Source: Siphonodentalium dalli
Taxonomy: Eukaryota > Mollusca > Scaphopoda > Gadilida > Siphonodentaliidae
Direction: 5' to 3'
DNA: 64,000 nt
Assembly (NCBI GenBank): GCA_032622095.1
Contig: CP136069.1
Span: forward strand, 185,929,122 to 185,993,121
Below are positions 1 to 54,353 of this stretch, piece by piece. Under the pieces are notes generated by a model. It saw only the letters and a program-made list of their open reading frames with translations. It ran no database searches and had not been told where the DNA came from. A program made the translations under genes and the position numbers. Every line of letters begins with the position of its first letter. The first letter of the stretch is position 1.

Positions 1-362
1 TATAAGAGAATGCATTGGCCTAACAATTTTTTATCATGTTTTTTAAATAAATGTTTCTTACAATTTTTAGGACATAAAATAAAAAAAAACATCCATTACC
101 GTGCAGGGAGCCCCACACTTATATAGAAGCACCTAGAAGAGTGTCGTCTGCTCATGTTTGTCTGGGGCTCTGTATGGGTGAAATTATAAAATTGTTAAAG
201 AATACAAGAACAAATTATTAAAATTGTAAAAAATTGTTAGGCCAATGCATTCTCTTATATATGCGAGGCGACCTATGGTCGACTCGCATATATAAGAGAA
301 TGCATTGGCACAGGGTAAAAAAATCCCGACTTCCGACTGGATTTTATATGGCGGGTCACATA
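1..362. mobile_element. J-family MITE, left part cut by window edge
   Basis: This is the right-hand part of an element whose other copy is at 884-1350. It contains one copy of the palindromic core (about 241-309), then CACAGGG, a segment reading AAATCCCGACTTCCGACTGG, and the end GGCGGGTCACA. The very first bases (TATAAGAGAATGCATTGGCC) are the right arm of a second core. The A/T-rich spacer between the cores matches the spacer of the complete copy in reverse order. It is non-coding; short open frames across it are palindrome read-through. Confidence 0.75.
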
Positions 363-605
363 TGTACATTTCCCTCCTATGTTCCAATCAATGGAGTGCG
401 ATTTCTAGATAAAGCGGGATATTTGACTCCAATTCCAACCTTTTGTTCGTATATCTTTAGAACATTTTGATTAAATATGTCGTTTCAAAACTTCTTAGGT
501 GGAATATTTGTAAACATAGATATTTCATCGAAATGATGTTGTAGTAAGTGCAGTTTTAATTAAAATTAGACTCGATCAAGTTACGCGTTACAGAGTCTAA
601 AGGGT

Positions 606-870
606 GTCGCTATCATTCACATTACCGCCGCTACAATAGCTTCTACATATATTACCTGTAGTATGTCGTTACATTCACATTACCGCCGCTACAATAGCTT
701 CTACATATATTACCTGTAGTATGTCGTTACATTCACACTACCGCCGCTACAATAGCTTCTACATATATTACCTGTAGTATGTCGTTACATTCACATTACC
801 GCCGCTACAATAGCTTCTACATATATTACCTGTAGTATGTCGTTACATTCACACTACCGCCGCTACAATA
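606..870. repeat. 58-bp tandem repeat, about 4.5 copies
   Basis: The phrase ATTCACATTACCGCCGCTAC recurs every 58 bases from 614 onwards. Alternate units carry ACATTA or ACACTA, so the array has two unit types. The last unit is interrupted by the J element at 884, and the rest of that unit (CCCGTAGTATGTCGTTA) reappears after the element at about 1354. No coding role is seen. Confidence 0.9.
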
Positions 871-883
871 GCTACTACACATA

Positions 884-1350
884 TGTGACCCGCCGCCATA
901 TCAAATCCAGTCGGAAGTCGGGATTTTGTTTTACCCTGTGCCAATGCATTCTCTTATATATGCGAGTCGACCATAGGTCGCCTCGCATATATAAGAGAAT
1001 GCATTGGCCTAACAATTTTTTACAATTTTAATAATTTGTTCTTGTATTCTTTAACAATTTTATAAGTTCACCCATACAGAGCCCCAGACAAACATGAGCA
1101 GACGACACTCTTATATGTGCTTCTATATATGTGTGGGGCTCCCTGCAGGGTAATGGGTGTGTTTTTTTTATTTTATGTCCTAAAAATTGTAAGAAGCATT
1201 TATTTAAAAATCATGATAAAAAATTGTTAAGCCAATGCATTATCTTATATATGCGAGGCGACCTATGGTCGACTCGCATATATAAGAGAATGCATTGGCA
1301 CAGGGTAAAAAAATCCCGACTTCCGACTGGATTTGATATGGCGGGTCACA
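884..1350. mobile_element. Complete J-family MITE inserted in the 58-bp array
   Basis: The ends are inverted repeats starting TGTGACCCGCC and ending GGCGGGTCACA. They continue inwards through the CAGTCGGAAGTCGGGATTTT motif and its complement. TA flanks both sides (882-883 and 1351-1352), which fits a TA or ATA target duplication. The interior has two copies of the palindromic core in opposite orientation, separated by about 200 bp of A/T-rich spacer. No transposase is encoded, so the element is non-autonomous. Confidence 0.8.
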
Positions 1351-1598
1351 TATTACCCGTAGTATGTCGTTATACCGCACAAACAGCTTCCCGACTCACA
1401 TAATGATATCTTCTTTCGATTTCGTTTTGTCGAATAACCAGCAGATACCTTGTAAATTCTTGTAAACTTAATTCTATTATTTGTAACAACAGATGTTTCA
1501 TGGAGCTTGCTGTAAGTGGTGCAACTGGGAAATAGAGACTCTTTATCGTAACGTTACATGCACGAACAGATAACAGTATGCACTAAATATTTTCACAG

Positions 1599-1835
1599 GG
1601 TGGCCTGGGGACGAAGGAAGAGATGTGCCTCGGATTTATATGGTACTATCCTAGGTCGGCACTGACACAGTGCGGATCCGTGCCGACCTATAATCTCACC
1701 TTCGAGATGATAGACGCGGGCGTCAGTGAAATGATGGTCGATTATAACTGGTCGGATCCCACCGTGCGGACGTCATTCGATGAGCTGAAGGAGTCCTCGT
1801 ACCACATCTATCATTGTGAGATCAACGGAACAAAG
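1599..1835 (+). CDS. DBH/MOXD1-like copper monooxygenase, one C-terminal-domain exon
   Basis: The exon follows the acceptor TATTTTCACAG and ends before the donor GTTAGT. It is 237 bases, phase 0 on both sides, and encodes 79 residues. The translation begins GGLGTKEEMCLGFIWYYPR, which matches the conserved GG-x-T-x-EEMC-x-x-F-x-x-YYPR block of dopamine beta-hydroxylase and MOXD1-type enzymes. The Met in EEMC is the expected CuM ligand, and a later Cys (YHC, about residue 73) aligns with a conserved cysteine of the domain. Enzymes of this family hydroxylate their substrate using copper, ascorbate and O2 in the secretory pathway. If the donor is not used, the same frame runs on to a stop at 1950-1952 (a lysine-rich tail ending RKQKKH), so this could be the terminal exon. 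Upstream exons lie outside the window. Family call is strong; the exact paralogue is unknown. Confidence 0.85.
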
Positions 1836-2479
1836 GTTAGTCACGATGATCGCGTCAAACAATTTTACATCATTCGTTTAAAGGCACGTGAGGCCTTAGT
1901 TGTCGAAAATATTCATATGTGTTCCAATCACCGTAAACAGAAAAAACATTAAAACGCATACGGTTTCGTTCATATATACCATGACCATCGCGTAAACAGC
2001 ATGTTATCATAAAGATTTACTATATTTTACCTAAGCAAGAGCCTGATTGTGTTACAGAAGACAACACAATGCTGCTGGCTAATCACACACAAATGGCATA
2101 AACGCTCTTTATTCGTTCCATATCAGGAATTCACCCACAAAGAACGCTCTTTATGTTTACCATCATAATATAAACAAACACCAGAAAAGTAACTTTTTAT
2201 GCCTTTGTTTACATAACAATGGTCAAAAATATGACAATAACATACTGTTTATGCGATATTTCTTATTTGTATACGGACAAAGTCTGTCTACATTTTGTTG
2301 TTCTTTCTGTTTGTGGCGGTTTTTGACGGGTGGAAATATTTTCACAGGATACCCACCGCCAAGGCCAACCGTACCTTTAAACATACTTATTAATTTTACC
2401 AATTAACGCTCATAAATTACTATTTCTACAGACATGACAATTGGAACTTATTCCCTATTCCTTATTCCTTATTTTCAAA
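1836..2479. other. Unassigned sequence after the monooxygenase exon
   Basis: This is either intron or 3' flank. The open frame continues to 1952. A weak acceptor (GTTACAG at about 2052) precedes a short open stretch with no recognisable homology. No clear AATAAA signal is seen. The GC-rich satellite starts at the right edge. Confidence 0.5.
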
Positions 2480-4412
2480 AATGTCGCTTTCGACCGATTT
2501 GACGGCATGGGTGGGTGGCCCGCCCAAATACCATCTAGAAACACCCCGACCCCCACCCATCACCCCAGGGGGGGGGGGGGGGGGGTGCCACCCCGAGGGG
2601 GTGAAAATGGGGTATGGACCATTTTCGAGAACGGTAAGTATTTCGACCGATTTTACGGCATGGGTGGGTGGCCCGCCCCAAATACCACATAGAAACACCC
2701 CGACCCCCCACCCATCACCCCCGGGGGGTGCCACCCCGAGGGGGTGAAAATGGGGTATGGACCATTTTCGAGAAAGGTAAGGATTTCGACCGATTTGACG
2801 GCATGGGTGGGTGACCCGCCCCAAATACCACCTAGAAACACCCCGACCCCCACCATCACCCCCGGGGGTGCCACCCGAGGGGGTGAAAATGGGGTAAGGA
2901 CCATTTTCGAGAACGGTAAGTATTTCGACCGATTTGACGGCATGGGTGGGTGGCCCGCCCCAAATACCACCTAGAAACACCCCGACCCCCACCCATCACC
3001 CCCGGGGGGGTGCCACCCCGAGGGGGTGACAATGGGGTATGGACCATTTTCGAGAACGGTAAGGATTTCGACCGATTTGACGGCATGGGTGGGTGGCCCG
3101 CCCCAAATACCACCTAGAAACACCCCGACCCCCCACCCATCACCCCCGGGGGTGCCACCCCGAGGGGGTGAAAATGGGGTATGGACCATTTTCGAGAACG
3201 GTAAGGATTTCGACCGATTTGACGGCATGGGTGGGTGGCCCGCCCCAAATACCACCTAGAAACACCCCGACCCCCACCCATCACCCCCGGGGGGTGCCAC
3301 CCCGAGGGGGTGAAAATGGGGTATGGACCATTTTCGAGAACGGTAAGGATTTCGACCGATTTGACGGCAAGGGTGGGTGGCCCGCCCCAAATACCACCTA
3401 GAAACACCCCGACCCCCACCCATCACCCCCGGGGGTGCCACCCCGAGGGGGTGAAAATGGGGTAAGGACCATTTTCGAGAACGGTAAGTATTTCGACCGA
3501 TTTGACGGCATCGGTAGGTGGCCCGCCCCAAATACCACCTAGAAACACCCCGACCCCCACCCATCACCCCCGGGGGGGTGCCACCCCGAGGGGGTGAAAA
3601 TGGGGTATGGACCATTTTCGAGAACGGTAAGGATTTCGACCGATTTGACGGCATGGGTGGGTGGCCCGCCCCAAATACCACCTAGAAACACCCCGACCCC
3701 CCACCCATCACCCCCGGGGGGTGCCACCCCGAGGGGGTGAAAATGGGGTATGGACCATTTTCGAGAACGGTAAGGATTTCGACCGATTTGACGGCAAGGG
3801 TGGGTGGCCCGCCCCAAATACCACCTAGAAACACCCCGACCCCACCCATCACCCCCGGGGGTGCCACCCCGAGGGGGTGAAAATGGGGTAAGGACCATTT
3901 TCGAGAACGGTAAGTATATCGACCGATTTGACGGCATCGGTAGGTGGCCCGCCCCAAATACCACCTAGAAACATCCCGACCCCACCCATCACCCCCGGGG
4001 GGGTGCCACCCCGAGGGGGTGAAAATGGGGTATGGACCATTTTCGAGAACGGTAAGGATTTCGACCGATTTGACGGCATGGGTGGGTGGCCCGCCCCAAA
4101 TACCACCTAGAAACACCCCGACCCCCACCCATCACCCCCGGGGGGTGCCACCCCGAGGGGGTGAAAATGGGGTATGGACCATTTTCGAGAAAGGTAAGGA
4201 TTTCGACCGATTTGACGGCATGGGTGGGTGGCCCGCCCCAAATACCACCTAGAAACACCCCGACCCCCCACCCATCACCCCCGGGGGGTGCCACCCCGAA
4301 GGGGTGAAAATGGGGTATGGACCATTTTCGAGAACGGTAAGAATTTCGACCGATTTGACGGCATGGGTGGGTGGCCCGCCCCAAATACCACCTAGAAACA
4401 CTCCGACCCCCA
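2480..4412. repeat. 142-bp GC-rich tandem array, copy 1 (~13-14 units)
   Basis: The unit contains GGGTGGCCCGCCCCAAATACC, a C-run/G-run pair (CACCCCCGGGGGGTGCCACC), GAGGGGGTGAAAATGGGGTA and GAGAACGGTAAGGATTTCGA. GGGTGGCCC recurs at 2948, 3091 and 3233, a spacing of 142-143 that varies with the length of the C/G runs. Sub-variants (TCGGTAGG for TGGGTGGG, AAGTAT for AAGGAT) recur every few units and suggest a higher-order pattern. Long open frames on both strands follow from the repeat and are not genes. Confidence 0.95.
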
Positions 4413-5270
4413 GTTTAATTAGTCTGAAAAAACTGCCAGATCACATGATAACCCACTTCATGACACAGTAGTTGCAAGTTTTAGTTGAATCGCTAAATAT
4501 CATATATAGCACACTCGTATGGACGATGGCCGGTCTATGTCCTATTATGCTTTGCCAGACTCCGTATATGACTGAATTCTTTCTGATACACGTCACACTC
4601 GTATGGACGATCGCCGGTGTTCGTCCTCTTATGCATTGTCAGACTCCATATATGACTGAATTCTTTATGACACACGTCACGCTCGTGTGGTCGATCGCCG
4701 GTGTTCGTCCTCTTATACATTGCCAGACTCCACGTATGACTGAATTCATTATGATACACGTCACGCTCGTATGGTCGATCGCCGGTGTTCGTCCTCTTAT
4801 GCATTGCCAGACTCCACATATAACTGAATTCCTTATGATACACGTCACGCTCGTATGGTCGATCGCCGGTGTTCGTCCTCTTATGCATTGTCAGACTCCA
4901 TATATAACTGAATTCCTTCTGATACACGGCACACTCGTATGGACGATCGCCGGTTTTCGTCCTTTTATGCATTGCCAGACTCCATATATGACTGAATTCC
5001 TTATGATACACGTCACGCTCGTATGGTCGATCGCCAGTGTTCGTCCTCTTATGCTTTGAAAGACTCCATACATAACTGAATGCCTTCTGATACACGTCAC
5101 ACTCGTATGGACGATCGCCGGTGTTCGTCCTCTTATGCATTGTCAGACTACATATATGACTAAATTCCTTGTCATACACGTCACTCTCGTGTGGACGATC
5201 GGCAGTGTTCGTCCTCTTATGCATATATGACTGAATTCCTTATGACACACGTCACGCTCGTATGGCTCGT
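4413..5270 (-). pseudogene. 84-bp zinc-finger-derived tandem array, copy 1
   Basis: After a ~70-bp leader (AGTTTAATTAGTCTG...) an 84-bp unit repeats about nine times. On the minus strand each unit reads like a C2H2 finger plus linker: HKRTNTGDRPYE, then DVY, KEFS, IWSL, MH. Eight consecutive 28-residue units stay open for 229 codons (5224-4535). The zinc ligands are broken. The second His is Asn in all units, the second Cys is usually Tyr, the first Cys is often Arg, and no unit keeps all four ligands. The array is therefore best called a decayed zinc-finger satellite, not a working protein. The plus strand is also open (4472-5059), as expected for a repeat length divisible by three. Confidence 0.7.
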
Positions 5271-6737
5271 GGGTGGCCCGCCCCAAATACCACCTAGAAA
5301 CACCCCGACCCCCACCCATCACCCCCGGGGGGGGGTGCCACACCGAGGGGGTGACAATGGGGTATGGACCATTTTCGAGAACGGTAAGGATTTCGACCGA
5401 TTTGACGGCATGGGTGGGTGGCCCGCCCCAAATACCACCTAGAAACACCCCGACCCCCCACCCATCACCCCCGGGGGTGCCACCCCGAGGGGGTGAAAAT
5501 GGGGTATGGACCATTTTCGAGAACGGTAAGGATTTCGACCGATTTGACGGCATGGGTGGGTGGCCCGCCCCAAATACCACCTAGAAACACCCCGACCCCC
5601 CACCCATCACCCCCGGGGGGTGCCACCCCGAGGGGTGAAAATGGGGTATGGACCATTTTCGAGAACGGTAAGGATTTCGACCGATTTGACGGCAAGGGTG
5701 GGTGGCCCGCCCCAAATACCACCTAGAAACACCCCGACCCCCACCCATCATTCCCGGGGGTGCCACCCCGAGGGGGTGAAAATGGGGTAAGGACCATTTT
5801 CGAGAACGGTAAGTATTTCGACCGATTTGACGGCATCGGTAGGTGGCCCGCCCCAAATACCACCTAGAAACACCCCGACCCCCACCCATCACCCCCGGGG
5901 GGGTGCCACCCCGAGGGGGTGAAAATGGGGTATGGACCATTTTCGAGAACGGTAAGGATTTCGACCGATTTGACGGCATGGGTGGGTGGCCCGCCCCAAA
6001 TACCACCTAGAAACACCCCGACCCCCCACCCATCACCCCCGGGGGGTGCCACCCCGAGGGGGTGAAAATGGGGTATGGACCATTTTCGAGAACGGTAAGG
6101 ATTTCGACCGATTTGACGGCAAGGGTGGGTGGCCCGCCCCAAATACTACCTAGAAACACCCCGACCCCCACCCATCACCCCGGGGGTGCCACCCCGAGGG
6201 GGTGAAAATGGGGTAAGGACCATTTTCGAGAACGGTAAGTATATCGACCGATTTGACGGCATCGGTAGGTGGCCCGCCCCAAATACCACCTAGAAACATC
6301 CCGACCCCACCCATCACCCCCGGGGGGTGCCACCCCGAGGGGGTGAAAATGGGGTATGGACCTTTTTCGAGAACGGTAAGGATTTCGACCGATTTGACGG
6401 CATGGGTGGGTGGCCCGCCCCAAATACCACCTAGAAACACCCCGACCCCCCACCCATTACCCCCGGGGGTGCCACCCCGAGGGGGTGAAAATGGGGTATG
6501 GACCATTTTCGAGAAAGGTAAGGATTTCGACCGATTTGACGGCATGGGTGGGTGGCCCGCCCCAAATACCACCTAGAAACACCCCGACCCCCCACCCATC
6601 ACCCCCGGGGGGTGCCACCCCGAGGGGGTGAAAATGGGGTATGGACCATTTTCGAGAACGGTAAGAATTTCGACCGATTTGACGGCATGGGTGGGTGGCC
6701 CGCCCCAAATACCACCTAGAAACACTCCGACCCCCAG
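5271..6737. repeat. 142-bp GC-rich tandem array, copy 2 (~10 units)
   Basis: This is the same unit, in the same order of variants, as 2947-4412. It differs by a few single-base and C/G-run length changes, for example CCCATCATTCCCGG at 5744 and CCCATTACCCCC at 6456. Confidence 0.95.
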
Positions 6738-7812
6738 TTTAATTAGTCTGAAAAAACTGCCAGATCACATGATAACCCACTTCATGACACAGTAGTTGCA
6801 AGTTTTAGTTGAATCGCTAAATATCATATATAGCACACTCGTATGGACGATGGCCGGTCTATGTCCTATTATGCTTTGCCAGACTCCGTATATGACTGAA
6901 TTCTTTCTGATACACGTCACACTCGTATGGACGATCGCCGGTGTTCGTCCTCTTATGCATTGTCAGACTCCATATATGACTGAATTCTTTATGACACACG
7001 TCACGCTCGTGTGGTCGATCGCCGGTGTTCGTCCTCTTATACATTGCCAGACTCCACGTATGACTGAATTCATTATGATACACGTCACGCTCGTATGGTC
7101 GATCGCCGGTGTTCGTCCTCTTATGCATTGCCAGACTCCACATATAACTGAATTCCTTATGATACACGTCACGCTCGTATGGTCGATCGCCGGTGTTCGT
7201 CCTCTTATGCATTGTCAGACTCCATATATAACTGAATTCCTTCTGATACACGGCACACTCGTATGGACGATCGCCGGTTTTCGTCCTTTTATGCATTGCC
7301 AGACTCCATATATGACTGAATTCCTTATGATACACGTCACGCTCGTATGGTCGATCGCCAGTGTTCGTCCTCTTATGCTTTGAAAGACTCCATACATAAC
7401 TGAATGCCTTCTGATACACGTCACACTCGTATGGACGATCGCCGGTGTTCGTCCTCTTATGCATTGTCAGACTACATATATGACTAAATTCCTTGTCATA
7501 CACGTCACTCTCGTGTGGACGATCGGCAGTGTTCGTCCTCTTATGCATATATGACTGAATTCCTTATGACACACGTCACGCTCGTATGGTCGATCGCCGG
7601 TGTTCGTCCTCATATGCTTTGCAAGACTCCATAACTAACTGAATTATATCTGATACACATCACACTCGTATGGACGATCACCGGTGTTCGTTCTCTTATG
7701 CATTGTCTGACTCCATATATGACTGAATTCCTTATGATACACGCCACGCTCGTATGGTCGATCTCCGGTTTTCGTCCTCTTATGCATTGCCAGACTTCAT
7801 ATATGCTTATAA
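6738..7812 (-). pseudogene. 84-bp zinc-finger-derived array, copy 2, with a longer tail
   Basis: The segment up to 7594 is essentially identical to 4413-5270, and the translated minus-strand 229-residue frame (7548-6859) is the same. Beyond 7594 the array continues for about two and a half more diverged units to 7812. This tail probably preserves the original right edge of the array that the duplication junction cut off in copy 1. The zinc ligands are broken in the same way. Confidence 0.7.
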
Positions 7813-12656: not shown

Positions 12657-12822
12657 TTAACCCTTTACCCAACAAACCGGCCAAAAACGGTCAAATAAAG
12701 CTGCAACAGCCTAAATTATCTTGGGTCTGTCTCAATAAAACCATACAAATATGGATATCATTGGAACCGGCTCATTGACCACATTGTGATGGTTACAGTT
12801 ATGCCCTGTGCCCTGTGGTTAA
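12657..12822. mobile_element. A-family MITE, short deleted copy
   Basis: It starts at TTAACCCTTTACCCAACAAA and keeps the GGCCAAAAACGG, GATATCATTGGAACCGGCTC and GTTACAGTTATGCCCTGTG parts. It then stops at GTGGTTAA without the palindromic cores and without a clear right end. Confidence 0.7.
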
Positions 12823-12837: not shown

Positions 12838-13230
12838 TTAAAGATGCATAATCCGAATTAACGCTCCCAGTTTACTATTTTTTTGGCTTCGGGGGGTAAA
12901 AAATATTTGATTCGAGTTGAGGAACCCACCTAACAAAGCCCAGAAAAAAGTCGTCAAACCGACGGTCTCAGACAAAATCGCGGATGAAGATGGATAACCC
13001 TAAAAGCAAGTGGTAATACGGCCAAATTTTGTTATACTCAAGTGATAATACGGCCATATTTCGTTGAACAACATGTTGATAAATAACACGTTTAAGAAAT
13101 TTTATACCATATTTGAGAGCAGTTAGCATTATTTTGTTCTAATTAATCGATTCTGATAAATAAAGCCTATTTTTAAATGTTGTTGTAACTTGATGATATG
13201 GGGACCGTCTGATCGGATTGAGTACCTTTG
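12838..13230. mobile_element. F-family MITE, copy 2
   Basis: Diverged left end (AAGATGCATAATCCGAATTA) and conserved right end (GATCGGATTGAGTACCTTTG). Its right end is about 30 bases before the first base of the amylase exon. The left arm has one TTAA at the site where copy 3 carries an inserted E element. Confidence 0.8.
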
Positions 13231-13259
13231 AATTATATTGTTTTATCTCCAACATGCAG

Positions 13260-14158
13260 GATATATGTGGACACTGTCATCAACCACATGACCGGATCTG
13301 GCGGTGATGGTCACGGCACAGGAGGGACCTATTTTAATGCAGGATCATTGAGTTTCCCAGGGGTTCCATTCGGCTCCACTGACTTTAATGGAGGAAACAA
13401 TTGTCACACCAGTGATGGCAGCATCCACAACTACAACAATGCCGATGAAGTGCGCAACTGCCGACTAGTTGGACTGCTGGACCTCGCACTAGGAAAAGAT
13501 TACGTCAGGCAAAAAATAGCAGATTATATGAACCATTGCATTGATCTGGGAGTGGCTGGCTTTCGAGTGGATGCTGCTAAGCATATGTGGCCGGGTGACA
13601 TGTCAGCTATATTCTCACGCCTAAAATCTCTCAACTCACAATATTTCGGACAAAACGCACACCCATTCATCTTCCAAGAAGTAATAGACATGGGTGGCAG
13701 CGAGCCAATCAAAGCCAACCAATATTTCGGTAATGGACGTATCACCAACTTCATATATGGTTCTAAATTGGGAGATGTTTTCTTAGGACATAACCATTTG
13801 AAATTCCTCACAAATTGGGGTGAAGGATGGGGGATGATGCCAAGTTCTGAGGCAGTTGTGTTCATTGATAACCATGACAACCAGAGAGGTCACGGTGGTG
13901 GTGGCACCATTATTACTCATAAGGACCCAAGAGACTATAAGATGGCGACGGCGTTTATGTTGGCGCATCCATACGGCTTCACTAGAGTTATGAGTAGTTA
14001 TTCCTTCTCGGACTCGTCAGCCGGTCCACCCCATAACGGAGATATGTCAACCAGCGACGTTCCCATTCATAGTGACATGGGGTGTGGAGGGGGTTGGGTT
14101 TGCGAACATCGTTGGAGAGAGATCTACAACATGGCTGCCTTCAGGAACATAGCAGCCG
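13260..14158 (+). CDS. AMY: Alpha-amylase, main catalytic exon
   Basis: The exon (899 bases) follows the acceptor CCAACATGCAG and ends before GTAAAT. One base completes the preceding codon, then 299 codons, then one base. It encodes most of a GH13 animal alpha-amylase, a secreted digestive enzyme that cuts alpha-1,4 bonds of starch and glycogen. All four GH13 regions are present: YVDTVINHM (region I), GFRVDAAKH with the nucleophile Asp at 13570-13572, FIFQEVI with the acid/base Glu at 13678-13680, and FIDNHD with the third Asp at 13876-13878. The chloride-site Arg (GFRVD), Asn (IDNHD) and Arg (GFTRVMSSY) are kept, so the enzyme should be chloride-dependent. [11 protein letters not shown] near the end is typical of animal amylases. 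The N-terminal ~100 residues, including the signal peptide, should be in upstream exons, but I find none in the window. Confidence 0.96.
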
Positions 14159-15368
14159 GTAAATAAATTGAATATTCCTCACATGAGTATACGTATATAG
14201 GAGATTAGGAGTTATACCCAGGTATCACAGAAGGGTTCACACTGCCCGGACATTTCTTTTGGCCACTATAATTTTGACCATTTCTGAATCTTTTGGCAAT
14301 TTTTCAGAAACTTTGGCCAAATTGAAAAAAAAAAAAATACATAGGATCATAGAGAAACCCGAAAATAAAATAAAAATAAAGAAATACACAGAAAAATAAC
14401 TGATAAATTTTGAGTTGGACAAAATTTAGAGGTGATTACTAACTGTAACGTTGAAACTTTTGGCCAAAACGTTAGGCCAAACCCTATTTTCTTAAATATA
14501 ATGCAAACTGTCCATTAATTCCTTTTAGAATCCAGTGATGTCAGGTAAATATATAATGATAAAAAATGCTCTTTTAAAGAAGAGCGTTGTTTTCGCTATT
14601 TTCTTAGACAATTTTTCAAAATCAAGACATTCAATGACTGTTGACACGCCCACCTGCATATGACTGTAAAGACTGAGACTCTGAAGATTACAGTCAGTAC
14701 GTGTCATCATTACCACAGTTATTCTACAAAGTCCCAGCTCCTAATGAAGCCACTGTTTTGGGGGACACTGTGGCCAGGCCTTTTATTTAATTTGATTTTA
14801 ATGGTAGGCATATCAGTGATATGTGCTTGTTTATATTCCAGACTCCAGTATGTCATATAAAATCACATCTCAATGACATGATGACATGTGTACAATTTAA
14901 CTCTAGCTGGATGAAGCTAATTTGACTGAACTTTCTGGTGAGAGAGGTGGGGGGTAGTGGTGGGAATCTTGGCCAGCCATGAGGGGGGGGGGGGGGGGGT
15001 GTGGTGATGGAAAGGGAAGTTTAATGAGTCTCAGTGATTTCATTAAAGATTCAAGTTTCACAACTTTGCAGATGTTATAATGGCCTTAGATTATCAAATT
15101 TTGTTTAGCATGGTAAAACAAAATATTTAAATTGAACAAGGAGTTAAATCTAATCTTAATTAAATAATTTTTTTTAAATACTTTTGAAATTGGGGGAACA
15201 CAATCGTCCACTCGTATCGCTGTGTTCACAGTGCTACAAGCCGATATCTCGAAGCAGCTCCAAGCTTATTGTTCAGACATTTCAATGTTATCCTTGGTTC
15301 AATGATTGGGACTGCTATATAATATTTCACTAAATTTTGTCTCATTAATCAGTCCATCATTCAATCAG
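14159..15368 (+). other. Amylase intron between exons
   Basis: Intron from GTAAAT to AATCAG. It is AT-rich, with a G-run at about 14983-14999. No other feature was recognised. Confidence 0.85.
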
Positions 15369-15638
15369 GTACTGGAGTGAATAACTGGTGGGATAACGGA
15401 AACAACCAGATTGCATTCTCACGAGGCGACAAGGCTTTTATCGCTATTAACCGGGATGGGAGTGATATAAATGAGAACCTGAAGACCGGGCTCTCTCAAG
15501 GAGAATACTGCGATGTGATATCGGGTAATCTGGAGAATGGACGATGCACGGGTTCTTCAGTTCACGTTGGCGGAGATGGGCGTGCTAGCATTCATGTGAG
15601 CCATACGACCGAAGATCCAATGATTGCCATCCATATAG
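15369..15638 (+). CDS. AMY: Alpha-amylase, C-terminal domain exon
   Basis: The acceptor is TCATTCAATCAG and the donor GTGAGA. The phase joins the previous exon exactly (g + gt gives Gly). It encodes 89 complete codons of the C-terminal beta-sandwich: [20 protein letters not shown], then [16 protein letters not shown] with two cysteines, then [10 protein letters not shown]. The order and spacing match domain C of animal amylases. A C-family element begins eight bases after the exon. The exon ends with one base of a split codon. Confidence 0.95.
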
Positions 15639-15646
15639 GTGAGATT

Positions 15647-16071
15647 CAAGCCAAAGTTTATAGTGTGCCTGTCATTTGCAGAATGAGGTCCACAGAGGGT
15701 GAATTTAGTAACGCTATCCCGCATAGCGGGCTAGCATCACCAAATTCACCCTATGGGTACCTCATTCTGCTTAGGCCTCATCTTCTCTGGAAAATTTCTC
15801 TATTATCAAATTTCTATAGAAACTTCTTCACATAGATTCTATTTTTTTTTAGTTTAATTTCTCTATATCCCCAAAATGGATGTACATCACAATAGTCACC
15901 ATTTGGGAACTTCAATCTAAGTCTATGTCTCCCATAGAAGAATGAGGCCATGCAGAATGAGGTCTCCAGAGGGTGAAATTAGTGATGCTAGCCCAATATG
16001 CGGGATAGTGTCACTAATTTCACCCTCTGGGGACCTCATTCTGAAAATGACAGCACACTATTATCAGGCTA
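15647..16071. mobile_element. C-family composite element in the last amylase intron
   Basis: Two hairpins (15680-15775 and 15955-16045) with CAGAATGAGGTCC stems are joined by the CTTAGGCCTCATCTTCTCTG spacer. The left end is CAAGCC and the right end TCAGGCT. It begins eight bases after the amylase exon. Confidence 0.8.
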
Positions 16072-17527: not shown

Positions 17528-17916
17528 TTAACCCTTTCAGTGCCAGGGGCCGATCTCATCGGCCCTAATTTACGGTCTGTATAATCGGCCCTAAAATTAT
17601 TATTATTTTTTATTTTTTATTATAGATTTTTTTGGGTTGAATTTTTTTTGGGTATGCTTAAGCATGCTATAGCGAATTTAAAAACAAACTGGATAAAACC
17701 TTAGGGGCAATGTTATAACTCAAAACTATCACCAAGTATTCATAGTAATAATTTTGATGCCCATGAAAAACGTAAGATTCCCTGGCACTAAACCTACAAA
17801 ATAAGTTCTCTTATATATGCGAGGCGACCTATGGTCGACTCGCATATATAAGAGAATGCATTGGCACAGGGTATATTGGTTGATACAAAAATCGGACCTG
17901 GCACTGAAAAGGTTAA
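17528..17916. mobile_element. E-family TTAA MITE, copy 1
   Basis: Starts TTAACCCTTTCAGTGCCAGG and ends CCTGGCACTGAAAAGGTTAA. It contains GGCCGATCTCATCGGCCCTA and, at 17810-17868, one (partly shortened) palindromic core with CACAGGGTATAT after it. Non-coding. It lies in the last amylase intron. Confidence 0.85.
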
Positions 17917-18225: not shown

Positions 18226-18330
18226 AAACAGCATTTCTTTCTTATGACCAGAGAATGGGAGATGAGCCACATATTACATACATGAGATAAAACATATACT
18301 GGTACATGAAGTGTATCTTAGAACCTTTAA

Positions 18331-18724
18331 TTGTTCACCCAACAGAAGGGCCCTGTGCCAATGCATTCTCTTATATATGCGAGTCGACCATAGGTCGCCT
18401 CGCATATATAAGAGAATGCATTGGCTTAACACATTAAAAATTATAAAATTGTTAAAGAATGTAAGTCAAAATGGTAAAAAGTGTTAATTTTTTTTTTTTT
18501 AGGCCAATGCATTCTCTTATATATGCGAGGCGACCTATGGTCGACTCGCATATATAAGAGAATGCATTGGCACAGGGTATAACTGTAACTATCACAATGT
18601 GGTCAAGGAGCCGGTTCCAATGATATCCATATTTGTATGGTTCTATTGAGACAGACCGAAGATATTTTAGGCTGTTGAAGCTTTATTTGGCCGGTTTTGG
18701 CCGGTTTGTTGGGTAAAGGGTTAA
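18331..18724. mobile_element. A-family MITE
   Basis: In reverse orientation. It has two inverted palindromic cores (18358-18424 and 18503-18572), then GGCATAACTG-like sequence, GAGCCGGTTCCAATGATATC and the end TGTTGGGTAAAGGGTTAA. The left end is altered (TTAATTGTTCACCCAACAGA). The right TTAA is followed directly by a B element. Confidence 0.85.
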
Positions 18725-19010
18725 TTGTTCACCCTTTCATGATAGGAGGTACGCTGATGCAGCATTAACAATACCACTATATAAATTTTGCGAAAACCCT
18801 GTGCCAATGTATTCTCTTATATATGCGAGTCTCCCATAGGGAGCCTTGCAAAAAGGAGAAGCTGAATGCACTGGCTGTCAAGGTAAATATTGTTAGCCAA
18901 TCTATTCTCTTATATATGCGAGGCTCCCATGGGAGACTCGCATATATAAGAGAATGCATTGGCACAGGGTTTTCGCAAAATTTCAGGAAGCTCCAGTCAT
19001 GGAAGGGTTA
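18721..19010. mobile_element. B-family MITE
   Basis: TTAATTGTTCACCCTTTCATGATAGG begins it and CTCCAGTCATGGAAGGGTTA ends it. Two cores with the CTCCCATAGGGAG-type centre are present; the first has lost most of its right arm. Confidence 0.8.
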
Positions 19011-19645
19011 TTAAGGGTCTCACTGCAGTTCAGCTATTTAATTGTGGGTGCCCCTACATTACAATAATAATGCCAAAAAGTTTGCTGTGACTGTGACATT
19101 TCAATTTTTTCTACTTTTGAGTAAAACATGATGCATCAGTGCAAGTGATGATGCAAGTCCAAAGTCTCAAGGCTATTAGATTATGTCAGTAGGACTAAAG
19201 TTATCATCTTGAAAAAAAAACCCAGACAAATAGGACTGACAGATCAACGGATGGACCAATAATATGTCTAAACAAGAGCATCGCTAGGCCATGGCAAAAT
19301 AAGTCTGTGGTAATTCCAACAAAGGTCTGGTGAAAATTGGTGGGCAGAATCCAAATTTGATGATCTCAACCTGTATTTTGGGCTAGTCAACTCACAGACC
19401 AAATTTCATTCCATTGTTCAGACTTACTAAAGTTGGCGGGCAGAACCCAAATTTGATCTTGACCTGCATTTTGGGCATGTAAACTCACATACCAAATTTT
19501 ATTCCATTCAGTTCAGACTTACTAAAGTTATTATCCGGAAATGAAAAAAGCAAACAGATGGACCAATATTTTATACTGTTTTTTTAAAATGGGCATATAA
19601 AAATAATGTAATTTTTTTTTTTAAATCTGTTACAGGAGCATTGTA
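19011..19645. other. Dispersed-repeat remnants
   Basis: Contains ACAGATCAACGGATGGACCA, then two copies of an AACTCACAGACCAAATTTCATTCCATT-type phrase, and AAGCAAACAGATGGACCAAT. The 3' part (19498-19645) is copied at 26033-26180. No gene was seen. Confidence 0.5.
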
Positions 19646-20047
19646 TTAACCCTTTACCCAACAAAACGGCCAAAATCGGCCAAATAAAGCTTCAACAGCC
19701 TAAAATATCTTCGGTGTGTCTCAATAGAACCATACAAATATGGATATCATTGGAACCGGCTCCTTGACCACATTGTGATAGTTACAGTTATGCCCTGTGC
19801 CAATGCATTCTCTTATATATGCGAGTCGACCATAGGTCGCCTCGCATATATAAGAGAATGCATTGGCCTAAAAAAAATCTTTTTTTTTAACACTTTTTAC
19901 CATTTTTTCTTACATTCTTTAACAATTTTATAATTTTTAATGTGTTAAGCCAATGCATTCTCTTATATATGCGAGGCGACCTATGGTCAACTCGCATATA
20001 TAAGAGAATGCATTGGCACAGGGCCCTTATGTTGGGTAAAGGGTTAA
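19646..20047. mobile_element. A-family MITE (complete)
   Basis: TTAA at both ends (19646-19649, 20044-20047), with ends CCCTTTACCCAACA and TGTTGGGTAAAGGG. It holds GGCCAAATAAAGCTTCAACA, GATATCATTGGAACCGGCTC and two opposed palindromic cores. It carries the private variant TCGGTGTGTCTC, shared only with the copy at 26181. Confidence 0.9.
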
Positions 20048-20548: not shown

Positions 20549-20810
20549 TTAACCTGTTCATGATGGGAGCTGCGCTGGTGCAGCATTAAAGATCCTGTGC
20601 CAATGCACTCATTTATATATTCGAGTCTCCCATAGGAAGACTCACATATATTAGAAAATGTACTAGATTACAAGTTCAAGGTAAATGTTGTCCTGCCAAT
20701 ACATTCTCTTATATATGTGAGGGTCCCTAAGGGAGACTCGCATATATAAAGAGTGCATTGGCACAGGGTTTTTGCCAAATTTCAGGAAGCTCCAGTCATG
20801 GAAGGGCTAA
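20549..20810. mobile_element. B-family MITE
   Basis: Left end TTAACCTGTTCATGATGGGA and right end CTCCAGTCATGGAAGGGCTAA. Two diverged cores with CTCCCATAG/CTAAGGGAG-type centres. Ten bases separate it from the next C element. Confidence 0.8.
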
Positions 20811-27522: not shown

Positions 27523-27785
27523 TTAACCCTTTCATCATGGGAGCTGCACTGGTGCAGCATTAAATACCCTGTGCCAGTGCATTCTTTTATTTATGTGAGT
27601 CTCCCATAGGGAGCTTTGCATATTAAGAGAATGCAATGACTTACAAGGTCAAGGTATATATTGTTAGGCCAATGTATTCTCTTATATATGCGAGGCTCCC
27701 TATGGGAGACTCACATACATAAGAGAATGCATCGGCACAGGATTTTTTGCAAAACATCAGGCAGGTCTAGTCATTGAAGGGTTAA
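27523..27785. mobile_element. B-family MITE
   Basis: TTAACCCTTTCATCATGGGA ... GTCTAGTCATTGAAGGGTTAA. Two diverged cores with CTCCCATAGGGAG centres. Confidence 0.85.
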
Positions 27786-32816: not shown

Positions 32817-33205
32817 TTAACCCTTTACCCAACAAACCGGCCAAATAAAGCTTCAACAGCCTAAAATATCTTCGGTCTGTCTCAATAGAACCATACAAAT
32901 ATGGATATCATTGGAACCGGCTCCTTGACCACATTGTGATAGTTACAGTTAGCCCTGTGCCAATGCATTCTCTTATATATGCGAGTCGACCATAGGTCGC
33001 CTCGCATATATAAGAGAATGCATTGGCCTAAAAAAAAACTTTTTTTAACACTTTTTACCATTTTTTCTTACATTCTTTAACAATTTTATAATTTTTAATG
33101 TGTTAAGCCAATGCATTCTCTTATATATGCGAGGCGACCTATGGTCAACTCGCATATATAAGAGAATGCATTGGCACAGGGCCCTTCTGTTGGGTAAAGG
33201 GTTAA
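32817..33205. mobile_element. A-family MITE (complete)
   Basis: TTAACCCTTTACCCAACAAA ... TGTTGGGTAAAGGGTTAA with two opposed cores. The flanks read TTAAAACAAAGTC on both sides, so the target held a 13-bp tandem duplication or one was made at insertion. Confidence 0.9.
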
Positions 33206-36229: not shown

Positions 36230-36507
36230 TTAAGAACCCTTTCATGATGGGAGCTGCACTGGTGCAGAGTGGTGCAGCATTAGAGACCCTGTACCAGTGC
36301 ATCCTTTTATATATATGGAGTCTCCCATAGGGAGCCTCACATAAATAAGAAAATGTACTGGCTTACAACGTCAAGGTAAATATTGTTAGGCAAATGTATT
36401 CTCTTATATATACGAGGCTCCCTATAGGAGACTCACATATATAAGAGAATGCATTGGCACATGATTTTTCGCAAAATTTCAGGAATCTCCAGTCATGGTA
36501 GGGTTAA
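36230..36507. mobile_element. B-family MITE downstream of the acyltransferase stop
   Basis: CCCTTTCATGATGGGAGCTG ... CTCCAGTCATGGTAGGG, with TTAAGAACC on the left and TTAAGAACC on the right. Two cores with CTCCCATAGGGAG centres. It lies 84 bases past the stop codon on the minus strand, so it may be in the 3' UTR. Confidence 0.85.
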
Positions 36508-38970: not shown

Positions 38971-39460
38971 TTAATCCTTTCATGATGGGAGCTGCGCTGG
39001 TGCAGCATTAAAGATCCTGTGCCAATGCATTCTCTTATATAAGCGAGTCTCCAATAGAGAGCCTTGCATATATAAGAGAATGCACTGGCTTATTTACAAG
39101 GTCAAGGTAAATAATGTTAGGCCAATGCATTGTCTTATATATGTGAGGCTCCCTATGGATATCATTGGAACCGGCTCCTTGACCACATTGTGATAGTTAC
39201 AGTTATGCCCTGTGCCAATGCATTCTCTTATATATGCGAGTCGACCATAGGTCACCTCGCATATATAAGAGAATGCATTGGCCTTAAAAAATCTTTTTTT
39301 TAACACTTTTTACCATTTTTTCTTACATTCTTAAACAATTTTATAATTTTTAATGTGTTAAGCCAATGCATTCTCTTATATATGCGAGGCGACCTATGGT
39401 CGACTCGCATATATAAGAGAATGCATTGGCACAGGGCCCTTCTGTTGGGTAAAGGGTTAA
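38971..39460. mobile_element. Chimeric MITE: B left half joined to A right half
   Basis: The left end TTAATCCTTTCATGATGGGA and first core are B type. At GCTCCCTATGG (about 39155) it switches to A sequence, ATATCATTGGAACCGGCTCC, and continues through two A cores to TGTTGGGTAAAGGGTTAA. The two parents share TATGG at the switch. The right TTAA ends nine bases before the exon at 39470. Confidence 0.85.
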
Positions 39461-43457: not shown

Positions 43458-43624
43458 TTAACCGTTTTATGATGGGAGCTGTGCTGATGCAGCATTAAAG
43501 ATCTTGTGTCAGTGCATTCTCTTATATATGCGAGTCTCCCAAAGGGAGCTTTGCATATATAAGAGAATGCATTGGTACAGTGTTTTCGCAAAATTTCAGG
43601 AAACTCCAGTGATGAAAGGGTTAA
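43458..43624. mobile_element. B-family MITE reduced to one core
   Basis: TTAACCGTTTTATGATGGGA ... CTCCAGTGATGAAAGGGTTAA with a single core. Its right TTAA (43621-43624) is the left TTAA of the next A element. Confidence 0.85.
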
Positions 43625-44009
43625 CCCTTTACCCAACAGAAGGGCCCTGTGCCAATGCATTCTCTTATATATGCGAGTCGACCATAGGTCGCCTCGCATA
43701 TATAAGAGAATGCATTGGCTTAACACATTAAAAATTATAAAATTGTTAAAGAATGTAAGAAAAAATGGTAAAAAAAGATTTTTTTAGGCCAATGCATTCT
43801 CTTATATATGCGAGGCGACCTATGGTCGACTCGCATATATAAGAGAATGCATTGGCACAGGGCATAACTGTAACTATCACAATGTGGTCAAGGAGCCGGT
43901 TCCAATGATATCCATATTTGTATGGTTCTATTGAGACAGACCGAAGATATTTTAGGCTGTTGAAGCTTTATTTGGCCGGTTTTGGCCGGTTTGTTGGGTA
44001 AAGGGTTAA
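43621..44009. mobile_element. A-family MITE (complete, reverse orientation)
   Basis: TTAACCCTTTACCCAACAGA ... TGTTGGGTAAAGGGTTAA with two opposed cores and the GGAGCCGGTTCCAATGATAT segment. Confidence 0.9.
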
Positions 44010-44800: not shown

Positions 44801-45144
44801 GTTACCATATACATACATGTACATGCATACAAACATACATATATACATGTACATACATACAGACAAGAATCGCATAAGAGATGTGGGTTCGAGTTTCGTT
44901 AGCTATGCCAAACATGGGTTTGGATTGAAAATGCATTGATTGTAACTGGCTATGATACACATAACACTGTTGAGGAAGTCTGACATACAAAATAGCAACT
45001 CAAGTCAGTTGATAGATGGTCAAGTTATCGATCAAGACATTTCATAGTACTCTGGATGAACACAAGTAATTATCTGTAAGCGTTATTGTGATACTGTATC
45101 TGTAAATAATCTCATAATACCCACTCCGGATGAACAGAAGTAAT

Positions 45145-47592
45145 CATAAACCAGCCTTTAATATTGGTGTGGCCTCATAAACCAGCCTTTAATATTGGTG
45201 TGGCCTCATAAACCAGCCTTTAATATTGATGTGGCCTCATAAACCTGGTAATATATTGGTGTGGCCTTGTAAGCCAGGCAATAATATTGGAGTGGCCTCG
45301 TAAGCCAGGCAATAATATTGGTGTGGCTGTATAAACCTGGCTATATATTGGTGTGGCCTCTTAAACCAGGCTATAATATTGGTGTGGCCTCATAAACCAG
45401 GCAATAATATTGGTGTGGCCTCATAAACCAGGCTATAATATTGGTGTGGCCTCATAAGCCAGGCTATAATATTGGTGTGGCCTCATAAACCAGGCTATAA
45501 TATTGGTGTGGCCTCATAAGCCAGGCAATAGTATTGGTGTGGCCTCATAAGCCAGGCAATAGTATTGGTGGGGCCTCATAAGCCAGGCTATATTATTGAT
45601 GTGGTCTCATAAGCCAGGCAATAGTATTGGTGTGGCCTCATAAGCCAGGCTATAATATTGGTGTGGCCTCATAAGCCAGGCTATAATATTGGTGTGGCCT
45701 CATAAGCCAGGCAATAGTATTGGTGTGGCCTCATAAGCCAGGCAATAATATTGGTGTGGCCTCATAAGCCAGGCAATAGTATTGGTGTGGCCTCATAAGC
45801 CAGGCTATAATATTGGTGTGGCCTCATAAGCCAGACAATAGTATTGGTGTGGCCTCATAAGCCAGGCTATAATATTGGTGTGGCCTCATAAACCAGGCAA
45901 TAATATTGGTGTGGCCTCATAAACCAGGCTATAATATTGGTGTGGCCTCATAAACCAGGCTATAATATTGGTGTGGCCTCATAAACCAGGCTATAATATT
46001 GGTGTGGCCTCATAAGCCAGGCAATAGTATTGGTGTGGCCTCATAAGCCAGGCTATAATATTGGTGTGGCCTCATAAGCCAGGCTATAATATTGGTGTGG
46101 CCTCATAAGCCAGGCAATAGTATTGGTGTGGCCTCATAAGCCAGGCAATAGTATTGGTGTGGCCTCATAAGCCATGCTATAATATTGGTGTGGCCTCATA
46201 AGCCAGGCAATAGTATTGGTGTTGCCTCATAAGCCAGGCAATAATATTGGTGTGGCCTCATAAGCCAGGCAATAGTATTGGTGTGGCCTCATAAGCCAGG
46301 CTATAATATTGATGTGGTCTCATAAGCCAGGCTATAATATTGGTGTGGCCTCATAAGCCAGGCTATAATATTGGTGTGGCCTCATAAGCCAGGCAATAGT
46401 ATTGGTGTGGCCTCATAAGCCAGGCTATAATATTGGTGTGGCCTCATAAACCAGGCTATAATATTGGTGTGGCCTCATAAGCCAGGCAATAGTATTGGTG
46501 TGGCCTCATAAGCCAGGCTATAATATTGGTGTGGTCTCATAAGCCAGGCAATAGTATTGGTGTGGCCTCATAAGCCAGGCTATAATATTGGTGTGGCCTC
46601 ATAAGCCAGGCTATAATATTGGTGTGGCCTCATAAGCCAGGCAATAGTATTGGTGTGGCCTCATAAGCCAGGCAATAGTATTGGTGTGGCCTCATAAGCC
46701 AGGCTATAATATTGGTGTGGCCTCATAAGCCAGGCAATAGTATTGGTGTGGCCTCATAAGCCAGGCTATAATATTGGTGTGGCCTCATAAGCCAGGCAAT
46801 AATATTGGTGTGGCCTCATAAGCCAGGCAATAGTATTGGTGTGGCCTCATAAGCCAGGCAATATTATTGGTGTGGCCTCATAAGCCAGGCTATAATATTG
46901 GTGTGGCCTCATAAGCCAGGCAATAGTATTGGTGTGGCCTCATAAGCCATGCAATAATATTGGTGTGGCCTCATAAGCCAGGCAATAGTATTGGTGTGGC
47001 CTCATAAGCCAGGCTATAATATTGGTGTGGCATCATAAGCCAGGCTATAATATTGGTGTGGCATCATAAGCCAGGCAATAGTATTGGTGTGGCCTCATAG
47101 GCCAGGCAATAGTATTGGTGTGGCCTCATAAGCCAGGCTATAATATTGGTGTGGCCTCATAAGCCAGGCTATAATATTGGTGTGGCCTCATAAACCAGGC
47201 TATAATATTGGTGTGGCCTCATAAACAAGGCTATAATATTGGTGTGGCCTCATAAGCCAGGCAATAGTATTGGTGTGGCCTCATAAGCCAGGCTATAATA
47301 TTGGTGTGGCCTCATAAGCCAGGCAATAGTATTGGTGTGGCCTCATAAGCCAGGCTATAATATTGGTGTGGCCTCATAAGCCAGGGTATAGTATTGGTGT
47401 GGCCTCATAAGCCAGGCTATAATATTGGTGTGGCCTCATAAGCCAGGCAATAGTATTGGTGTGGCCTCATAAGCCAGGCTATAATATTGGTGTGGCCTCA
47501 TAAGCCAGGCAATAGTATTGGTGTGGCCTCATAAGCCAGGCTATAATATTGGTGTGGCCTCATAAGCCAGGCAATAGTATTGGTGTGGCCTA
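45145..47592. repeat. 31-bp minisatellite, ~79 copies, inside an intron
   Basis: The unit is TATTGGTGTGGCCTCATAAG then CCAGGCTATAA. Two main unit types alternate irregularly: CAGGCTATAATATT and CAGGCAATAGTATT. A third, CAGGCAATAATATT, is rarer, and AAACCAGG replaces AAGCCAGG in clusters. The left edge is more diverged than the right. The array ends 11 bases before the first intronic base (47602) of the donor of the next exon upstream in the gene (47603-47693). Confidence 0.97.
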
Positions 47593-47602
47593 ATGCACTC
47601 AC

Positions 47603-52454: not shown

Positions 52455-52593
52455 TTCAAGAGGTTTATTGTTTTTACTGGAAGCTGTTCCATTAATGAAT
52501 GAAGTATAATCTGAGTAGAAAGCGAATGGACCACACAACACACCATGAAAATAGAAGACGTAGCTGTAATATTCCAGCAATCCTGGGAGCTTC
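52455..52593 (-). CDS. MBOAT1/2: MBOAT1/2-like acyltransferase exon
   Basis: 139 bases: one base completes Pro, then 46 codons. Acceptor GATTATTTTGCAG, donor GTGAGT. The translation is KLPGLLEYYSYVFYFHGVLC, GPFAFYSDYTSFINGTAS, then SKNNKPLE. The PSLLEY-S-x-x-x-F-x-x-x-x-x-GP-x-x-x-x-DY-x-x-FI pattern is the classic MBOAT1/2 block. Confidence 0.96.
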
Positions 52594-52635
52594 CTGCAAA
52601 ATAATCACATTCAATGGAAGGGATGGGCCTGGATT

Positions 52636-52990
52636 TATAAAGGTACATAATCCGAATTAATGCTCCTAAATTACTATTTCTTTGGCTTCGGGGGTAAACA
52701 ATATTAATTTCGATTCGAGTCGAGGAACCCACCCATCAAAGCTCAGAGTTATTAGATAACGATTTTTTAAATCTGTTTTTCTCACCACCTGGAATATTTG
52801 GCAGCCTAGCAAATATTTGAAGACACGGCCGACATACTCTTGATGTACCAAATGGTGCTGAATAAAATGTTAATATATCACATGTTTTTGGAAATTTTAT
52901 CCTTAGTTGACAGAGGTGAGCATTATTTTTTGGTAAATATCAATTCCGATAACTGAAGCGTCTTTTGAAGAAATATTGTTGTTGTTGTAA
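52636..52990. mobile_element. F-family MITE, right end eroded
   Basis: AAAGGTACATAATCCGAATT, ACTATTTCTTTGGCTTCGGG, GTCGAGGAACCCACCCATCA are present. It starts 42 bases upstream of the acceptor of exon 52455-52593. Confidence 0.75.
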
Positions 52991-53583
52991 ACTTAGTACA
53001 TGTTTAGTGATGTTTTTTTACATAACAATGGTTCCATCACGCGAACTTTCATTATTGGAGAACTATCAATGAATATAAGAACAAAGTTTATTTATGTTCT
53101 TCTTAGCGGTGATGTTTTAACAGACTTCCATATTTTTTGCACATTTACCCACTGCGAGTGCCTTGGGTCCCTTCCATTTGAAAAATACATGTTATAGTAG
53201 GCCAAACTATTGTATGCAATGCAATGAAAGTACGACATCTGAATCAATTATATCTGATGTGTCATGCCAGCATTGAAGATCTGTCAGACTTTGTCAAATC
53301 TCTGATAAACTTTGAATTAAATCCGCGTTGGTTTCAGACATACAATGCACACAAAGTTGTCACATTCGGCTTTCCGTACATAAGGTTTGGAAATCCTTGT
53401 TAACAAGAGGAAATACGCCGATGAGGTAATAATTCTAGTTTTATTATTTTGATTCTGCACTGGGTATACAATATGCAGGGCTATTATAGAGCATACGATA
53501 CCCTAATATCAATTGGAAATTAATCAGATAGGCCTAACCATGTATAGAACAGTAACATTAGGCTAGTTAATTAGCATTGTGCA
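52991..53583. other. Intron sequence, nothing recognised
   Basis: AT-rich; the short open frame 53000-53197 has no family signature. Confidence 0.45.
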
Positions 53584-54047
53584 TTAACCCTTTACCCAAC
53601 AGAACGGCCCTGTGCCAATGCATTCTCTTATATATGCGAGTCGACCATAGGTCGCCTCGCATATATAAGAGAATGCATTGGCTTAACACATATTAAAAAT
53701 GATAAAATTGTCAAAGAATGTAGAAAAATATTATAAAAATTGTTAAAAAATGTAAGAACAAATTATAAAATTGTTAAAGAATGTAAGAAAAATGGTAAAA
53801 AGTGTTAAAAACAGATTTGTTTTAGGCCAATGCATTCTCTTATATATGTGAGGTGACCTATGGTCGACTCGCATATATAAGAGAATGCATTGGCACAGGG
53901 CATAACTGTAACCATCACTATGTGGTCAATGAACCGGTTCCAATGATATCCATATTTGTATGGTGTTATTGAGACAGACCGAAGATATTTTAGGCTGTTG
54001 AAGCTTTATTTGGGCGTTTTTGGCCGTTTTGTTGGGTAAAGGGTTAA
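53584..54047. mobile_element. A-family MITE, expanded spacer
   Basis: TTAACCCTTTACCCAACAGA ... TGTTGGGTAAAGGGTTAA. The spacer between the cores is longer than in other copies because ATAAAATTGTTAAAGAATGT-like sequence is repeated three times. Confidence 0.9.
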
Positions 54048-54104
54048 GCTTTTAATTGCCTTAGTATAAATAAATCTGCCACAAACAACATTTAAACAGA
54101 GTTG

Positions 54105-54353
54105 GCTCCATAGGGAGCCTCGCACTTATAAAAGAATGCACTGGCTTACAAGGTCAATGCATTCTCTTATATATGCGATGCTCCCTATGGGATAGGGAGC
54201 CTCGCACTTATAAAAGAATGCACTGGCTTACAAGGTCAATACATTCTCTTATATATGCGATGCTCCCTATGGGAGACTCGCATATATAAGAGAATGCATT
54301 GGCACAGGATTTACGCAAAAAATTGCAGGAAGCTCCAGTCAAGAAATGGTTAA
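54105..54353. mobile_element. B-family MITE with an internal duplication
   Basis: GGGAGCCTCGCACTTATAAA and CATTCTCTTATATATGCGAT occur twice (54115 and 54187), then the second core, and the right end AAGCTCCAGTCAAGAAATGGTTAA. The left end is missing. Confidence 0.75.

Follow-up and report, generated by a model that had tools for sequence, protein, structure and literature searches.

A hairpin shared by four families of miniature transposable elements with different ends in the scaphopod Siphonodentalium dalli

How does one palindromic sequence come to lie inside several families of mobile DNA whose ends differ? This question is raised by a stretch of 64,000 nt from the scaphopod mollusc Siphonodentalium dalli (assembly GCA_032622095.1, contig CP136069.1, positions 185,929,122 to 185,993,121), called the window in the following, for which an earlier note had described one palindromic core within four families, A, B, E and J. 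These are non-autonomous DNA elements (miniature inverted-repeat transposable elements, MITEs), and we observed the core adjoining A, B, E and J ends both in the window and elsewhere in the genome (2.227 Gb, 9 contigs). We consider it rather probable that one MITE interior was exchanged among the families via breaks at hairpin tips and was then amplified by several transposases. Its observed parts are the shared interior, the sharp (C)CCTGTG border, a minor form with B ends around an A-type interior (B'), a B/A chimera whose junction lies at a hairpin loop, and deletion breakpoints biased towards the loops.

The core is a hairpin of two 32-nt arms with an ATA loop and one fixed T.C mismatch. 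The palindrome of ~68 bp proposed earlier is real, but measures 67 bp and is imperfect and polar. Two subtypes can be distinguished by the loop-side stem, which is CGACC/GGTCG in A-type and CTCCC/GGGAG in B-type cores; the A-type unit is CCAATGCATTCTCTTATATATGCGAGTCGACC-ATA-GGTCGCCTCGCATATATAAGAGAATGCATTGG (67 bp). Among distinct units, the T.C mismatch falls at pair 27 in 50 of 52 of the A type and in 24 of 26 of the B type, and both this mismatch and the border (C)CCTGTG lie on fixed sides in nearly all units, the exceptions being copy L031, which is flipped, and units of tandem arrays that have no outer border. Regarding the border CTGTGCC/GGCACAG originally reported, (C)CCTGTG is indeed present on the outer side, but the inner side is mostly CYTAA or CTTAC (CCTAAC, CTTAAC, CTTACA). 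Searching the window for the half-site CCAATGCATTCTCTTATATA with at most 3 mismatches gave 77 matches, compared to 0.03 expected from shuffles, and scripted pairing of half-sites yielded 33 palindromic units. For three of these the DNA fold ranged from -29.6 to -36.3 kcal/mol (z -13.6 to -14.4), and an A-type unit with short flanks folded at about -36 kcal/mol (z about -14). The exact 26-bp core half occurs 137,010 + 137,088 = 274,098 times in the genome (reversed control: 0) and the exact 75-mer CCCTGTG-core-C 40,622 + 40,428 = 81,050 times; as only exact matches were counted, these numbers are lower bounds. With 45 exact 26-mers compared to a genome mean of 7.9 per 64 kb, the window is rich in cores. 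We found no match to the core in viral contigs, no match in the window to an Rfam family of structured RNAs at the gathering threshold, and no tRNA in a scan with the bacterial code. At G000:C1:820000-930000 the cores are spaced alternately by ~5.0 and ~6.2 kb, which corresponds to an 11.2-kb tandem array holding MITEs.

The four families arrange the core differently. In full A and J elements an AT-rich linker is flanked by two mutually inverted cores, whereas E elements have a single core with part of the AT-rich linker. B elements contain two diverged cores of the CTCCC/GGGAG subtype around a different linker of 29 bp. All four families thus hold a core as first suggested, but A, J and B hold two inverted ones and B another subtype. 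In single-stranded A, pairing is also possible between its two cores. Exact ends were counted in the genome for A (TTAACCCTTTACCCAACA; 91,621), E (TTAACCCTTTGAGTGCCAGG; 14,969), B (left end; 4,980) and J (a 35-mer; 3,171). The ends had been regarded as otherwise unlike, which is in agreement with the outer ends of J, which look unrelated to the others by eye, but only partly with A, B and E, all of which start with TTAACCCTTT. A and E additionally have outer repeats of their own, CCGGCC pairs and GGCCGAT/ATCGGCC (by eye). Complete A, B and E copies carry TTAA on both sides, the duplicated target of piggyBac-type MITEs; the genome-wide end patterns for these three families had TTAA built in. 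For J, the target is ATAT rather than TA/ATA: it follows GGGTCAC in 43 of 49 ends, with TTAA in 1, and while the J pattern ends in ATA, so that ATAT is partly forced, the free fourth base is T in 47 of the 49.

The shared piece is larger than the core and comprises hairpin plus linker and, except in E, a second, inverted hairpin. This supports the earlier proposal that several backbones received the same hairpin. The linkers of A, E, J and B' are alike, with 12 of 13 comparisons scoring above the best of 200 dinucleotide shuffles (score and shuffle maximum: E-J 80 and 36; A1-J 66 and 31; A2-B' 111 and 58), and those of A and B' contain repeats of 31–33 bp. The form B' was recognized in locus L032, where a B left end is joined to an A-type core, and this junction has 8 exact dispersed copies on six contigs. 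In 4 of the 7 newly fetched copies B ends are present on both sides (L108, L111, L112 and L113, with L111 and L112 being near-identical neighbours). L109 has a B-like outer arm (CTCCC) and an inner arm closer to A, the left core of L110 is truncated, and the remaining fetched copies have A-type cores. B ends, A-type core and AT-rich linker therefore occur together, which makes B' a partial intermediate and favours end exchange from a common lineage. Since the B copies are more diverged, we infer an undated order B to B' to A, E and J.

B' also bears on the possibility that all four families go back to one long parent with nested ends, their differences reflecting which of these ends were used. 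The start TTAACCCTTT common to A, B and E would fit such a parent, and B' does tie B ends to an A-type cassette. However, piggyBac lineages of this genome that are mutually unlike start with TTAACCCTTT as well, the J ends look foreign to the others and have ATAT as target, and in the loci read, inspected by motif matches and by eye, ends of two families nested on the same side were not noticed. A single parent carrying all four ends was not found either, and we regard this explanation as quite unlikely.

The elements and fragments delimited in the window are the following (window coordinates):

1–359, minus strand: J element, left end beyond the window; core 242–308, second core cut at the window start; ATAT 360–363
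885–1349, plus strand: J element, cores 941–1007 and 1232–1298; ATAT on both sides (881–884, 1350–1353)
12657–12822, plus strand: A element without core; long A end, then CCCTGTGCCCTGTGG, TTAA
17528–17916, minus strand: E element, one core at ~17805–17864, inner edge lost
18320–18724, plus strand: A element, cores 18358–18424 and 18504–18570; left end degenerate, start approximate
18728–19011, plus strand: B element, diverged B-type cores; both target sites degenerate
19646–20047, minus strand: A element, cores 19800–19866 and 19950–20016
20549–20810, plus strand: B element, diverged cores
23109–23481, minus strand: A element, core 23402–23450 with an 18-bp deletion ending at the loop
24151–24532, minus strand: A element, cores 24305–24371 and 24435–24501; right TTAA common with the next element
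24529–24968, minus strand: B element, another palindromic repeat inside (24626–24809)
26181–26565, minus strand: A element, right TTAA lost; cores 26335–26401 and 26473–26539
27523–27785, plus strand: B element
27931–28329, minus strand: A element
29662–29789, no strand given: fragment with two damaged B-type cores
30173–30615, minus strand: E element, long form, one core 30497–30563
32817–33205, minus strand: A element
36231–36507, plus strand: B element, start approximate
38971–39460, plus strand: B/A chimera; left half of a B element as far as the loop of its second core, continued by A from a joint near 39155–39159
43458–43624, plus strand: B element cut down to one core
43621–44009, plus strand: A element, TTAA common with the preceding element
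53584–54047, plus strand: A element with long linker, cores 53615–53681 and 53827–53893
54107–54353, plus strand: B fragment, core tandemly duplicated (82-bp unit)
60759–61002, plus strand: B element, diverged cores 60808–60866 and 60896–60962

The B/A chimera is joined at the loop of the B core via the shared letters TATGG. For an analysis of breakage in general we aligned A, E and J copies and L032 to five reference copies and dropped the local duplicates L023, L028 and L039 as well as alignments scoring below 240 from the breakpoint set. We observed 57 deletions of at least 8 bp across 144 core instances. Within cores, 11 of 31 breakpoints touch the loop, compared to 4.05 expected from uniform placement (P = 0.0002, 20,000 draws); in the J loci, which had not been selected by their core, the loop is touched by 5 of 14. 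Besides deletions, L031 shows a flipped arm, and in L068 loop and arm are present in an additional, inverted copy. Amplification of copies with an arm deletion or of chimeric copies was considered and not borne out, as the deletion junction of L045 has two copies in the genome and the B/A junction one. These low counts are no proof that such copies are immobile, because most copies never become founders.

In the series of events that we favour, the hairpins would extrude and their tips would be cut. The cut ends may then join nearby MITEs through short shared sequence (microhomology), and an occasional product with two usable ends of another family would found a new family. The founders would have been moved in trans, by three piggyBac lineages in the case of the TTAA families and by another transposase in the case of J at ATAT. 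The hairpin would then be a passenger that causes exchange while having no mobility of its own. We think it unlikely that the double hairpin is a second-order parasite, which, equally immobile by itself, spreads among families as its tips are cut and its arms recombine, thereby changing transposase and target (TTAA to ATAT) and reaching >81,000 identical copies.

Several observations weigh against exchange via hairpin tips. Breakpoints are no denser in cores (31 in 9,758 bp) than in the rest of the elements (83 in 22,916 bp), so that the cores are not unusually deletion-prone; we therefore rejected the core as a general deletion hot spot and consider only the position within it as skewed. The loops are also short microhomologies, and polymerase slippage could place breakpoints there. 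The only loop-joined chimera is a single copy, hence no founding event has been caught, and we found no autonomous partner whose ends match those of A, B, E or J exactly. In addition, the linker likeness between E and A is weak (A2-E 55 compared to a shuffle maximum of 49, which is marginal; A1-E 47 compared to 49, which fails), and the short B linker exceeds the shuffles in 1 of 6 comparisons and barely so (23 compared to 21). Finally, shuffling destroys the linker repeats, so that scores between repeat-bearing linkers may be inflated.

Next, we considered whether the core occurs free, as the earlier note had supposed that it may itself be mobile and had proposed a search for cores with no MITE around them. 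In 20 loci picked by exact core from the start of contig 1 (including the local duplicates L027/L028 and L038/L039), the sequence read includes an end of one of the four families in 18, and the other 2 are truncated E elements. A pyrimidine before CCCTGTG is found 1,043 times in the genome, and among 20 loci chosen for this unusual outer base there are again 18 with an A, B, E or J end, the other 2 being truncated J elements. L089 and L093, examined as candidates for free cassettes, both proved to be truncated J. No free core was thus found in the 40 core-picked loci, and in this sample it does not behave as a stand-alone palindrome resembling bacterial repetitive extragenic palindromes (REPs). 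Loci picked by their ends gave a similar picture: the core is present in 20 of 20 J-end loci (touched by a deletion of at least 8 bp in 8), in 8 of 8 loci with a pair of A ends (L067, L073, L075–L080), at least partly in 5 of 6 E loci mostly chosen for odd length (the core is lost in L071 and a single arm is left in L072), and in 5 of 6 B-left sites. The sixth of these, L083, is an array of B ends, in which the B left end is repeated at 1–401 in units of ~37 bp with TTAA in most units (by eye). L067, whose A ends are 2.4 kb apart, was considered as an autonomous candidate; its linker contains ~2 kb of other sequence.

These results make it very unlikely in our view that the core or cassette moves or amplifies by itself as a parasite of MITEs. 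Such a mobile core would account for the very high copy number and sameness (81,050 identical 75-mers), for the sharp (C)CCTGTG border in the contexts seen and for 275 exact solo hairpins with two outer borders, a figure from a genome-wide count. However, no core was free in the loci picked by it, the copy number has about the magnitude that the numbers of A (91,621) and E (14,969) ends would predict, and a solo form can result from a deletion inside A. L073, which belongs to the same class as the 275, is such an A copy with a single hairpin.

Modules of these MITEs also occur in other arrangements. A second common hairpin-like module, whose arms are GGGGCTC/GAGCCCC, was recognized by eye in the J linker (e.g. 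window 1070–1170) and in the B copy L084 at ~260–340. B-type cores form tandem arrays with units of 97 or 104 bp in L034 (791–1162 and 2268–3013) and L088 (256–697), where a MITE interior appears to be becoming a satellite.

A search for piggyBac transposases with PF13843 gave 128 matches in the genome, with some genes counted twice. We read 44 loci (6 + 20 + 18) of 3.8–4.7 kb each, in few of which both element ends were identified, and grouped them into 15 clusters at 60% identity. The A end matches L066/L114/L123 at 17 of 18 letters, the B end partly resembles L130, and the E end partly resembles L001/L048 or L131. The families probably use different transposases, judging from the likeness of their ends, because these end-alike lineages (transposases of L114, L130, L131 and L001) are only 28–38% identical. 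The piggyBac ends of L001 and L048 have a subterminal palindrome pair of their own, CTACGAG..CTCGTAG. A core inside a piggyBac element was seen in 0 of the 44 loci within the stretches read; in L119 and L123 a B and an E MITE lie outside the left end of the piggyBac element.

This absence weakens the alternative that the hairpin is a subterminal transposase-binding site, comparable to the 19-bp palindrome bound by the piggyBac cysteine-rich domain, which was kept by several families while the tips diverged. The hairpin does adjoin the ends, the consensus of either subtype preserves its pairing and polarity, with loop-side stem changes that affect both sides, and according to an excerpt of PMC7351741 known piggyBac ends have a palindromic internal repeat; the absence is also tempered by other end designs, as described for piggyBat in an excerpt of PMC11707139. 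On the other hand, the low identity of the candidate-lineage transposases, the different target of J, and the single core of E speak against such a site, and the outer repeats of A and E could serve instead. We therefore hold a binding site to be improbable, and for the role exploited by transposases that had been suggested for the core there is no positive evidence.

The substitutions within resident copies likewise give no indication of such a role. The ungapped units compared were 52 distinct ones of the A type and 26 of the B type (158 of 218 hits kept; L023, L028, L039 and L112 left out). We counted two-sided changes, of which there were 0 in A-type (0.44 in shuffles) and 10 in B-type units (11.4 in shuffles). 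From these counts we rejected the idea that compensatory mutation keeps the core in resident copies. Between the consensuses of the two subtypes, two adjacent pairs differ in both arms. Because changes in resident copies are uncompensated while the subtype consensuses keep their pairing, pairing would thus be kept, or re-made by copying back, only in family-founding copies. L009 was examined as an arm copied from its partner; the only sign is one base (pair 27), which a single substitution explains equally well.

In comparison with known systems, the elements resemble piggyBac-type MITEs in their TTAA on both sides, their ends CCCTTT.. and their shortness, but here three end types share one interior, J lies at ATAT and no exact-ended autonomous copy was found. 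For the Angel elements of fish it was reportedly proposed some time ago that the hairpins of MITEs are amplified in the course of replication. Copies with mixed ends and interiors are known from Galileo in Drosophila mojavensis, in which, as far as an excerpt of PMC3573991 describes, the ends of one group occur with the interior or the other end of another group and are ascribed to recombination between copies. Those chimeras are between subfamilies of one transposon, whereas here the ends resemble different transposase lineages, the targets differ and the one junction seen lies at a hairpin loop. The pearl family of bivalves, compared by description from an excerpt of PMC5139131, likewise consists of modular MITEs with internal tandem repeats within a network of satellites and transposable elements, but in our elements the interior consists of two 67-bp hairpins and an AT-rich linker. 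In one clam satellite of that study, 13 of 16 junctions were associated with a longer palindrome, and its authors do not regard palindromes as a necessary determinant. Bacterial REPs and their mosaic elements (BIMEs) are similarly abundant paired palindromes in alternating orientation, but REPs are extragenic repeats (PMC2817692, excerpt), whereas the present palindrome was found only in MITEs or their remnants. Nothing decisive came from PMC12595863 (excerpt).

What the present data add is an exchange between types of ends with probably different transposase lineages behind them, and between different target sites, together with the very high copy number and a hairpin at the single junction caught. 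To our knowledge, a MITE interior coming under new ends and a new transposase has rarely been caught in the act. In this genome one interior is found under four end types and at two targets, and both an intermediate with B ends and a chimera joined at a loop can still be seen. Should the exchange be driven by hairpin tips, palindromes within transposons would be engines of family turnover, and the tens of thousands of copies permit a statistical test.

Apart from the MITEs, the window contains further features. A copper type II monooxygenase exon (Cu2_monoox_C) lies at 1587–1949, and alpha-amylase exons (Pfam Alpha-amylase, Alpha-amylase_C) are located at 13222–15832. An array of 143-bp G/C-rich repeats at 2488–7805 includes two blocks of C2H2 zinc-finger repeats (4510–5224 and 6834–7548) with an 84-bp unit, the first with a match to Pfam zf-H2C2_2; in view of the two blocks, a stretch of ~2.3 kb appears to be duplicated. 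At 45144–47591 we observed a minisatellite with 79 copies of a 31-bp unit.

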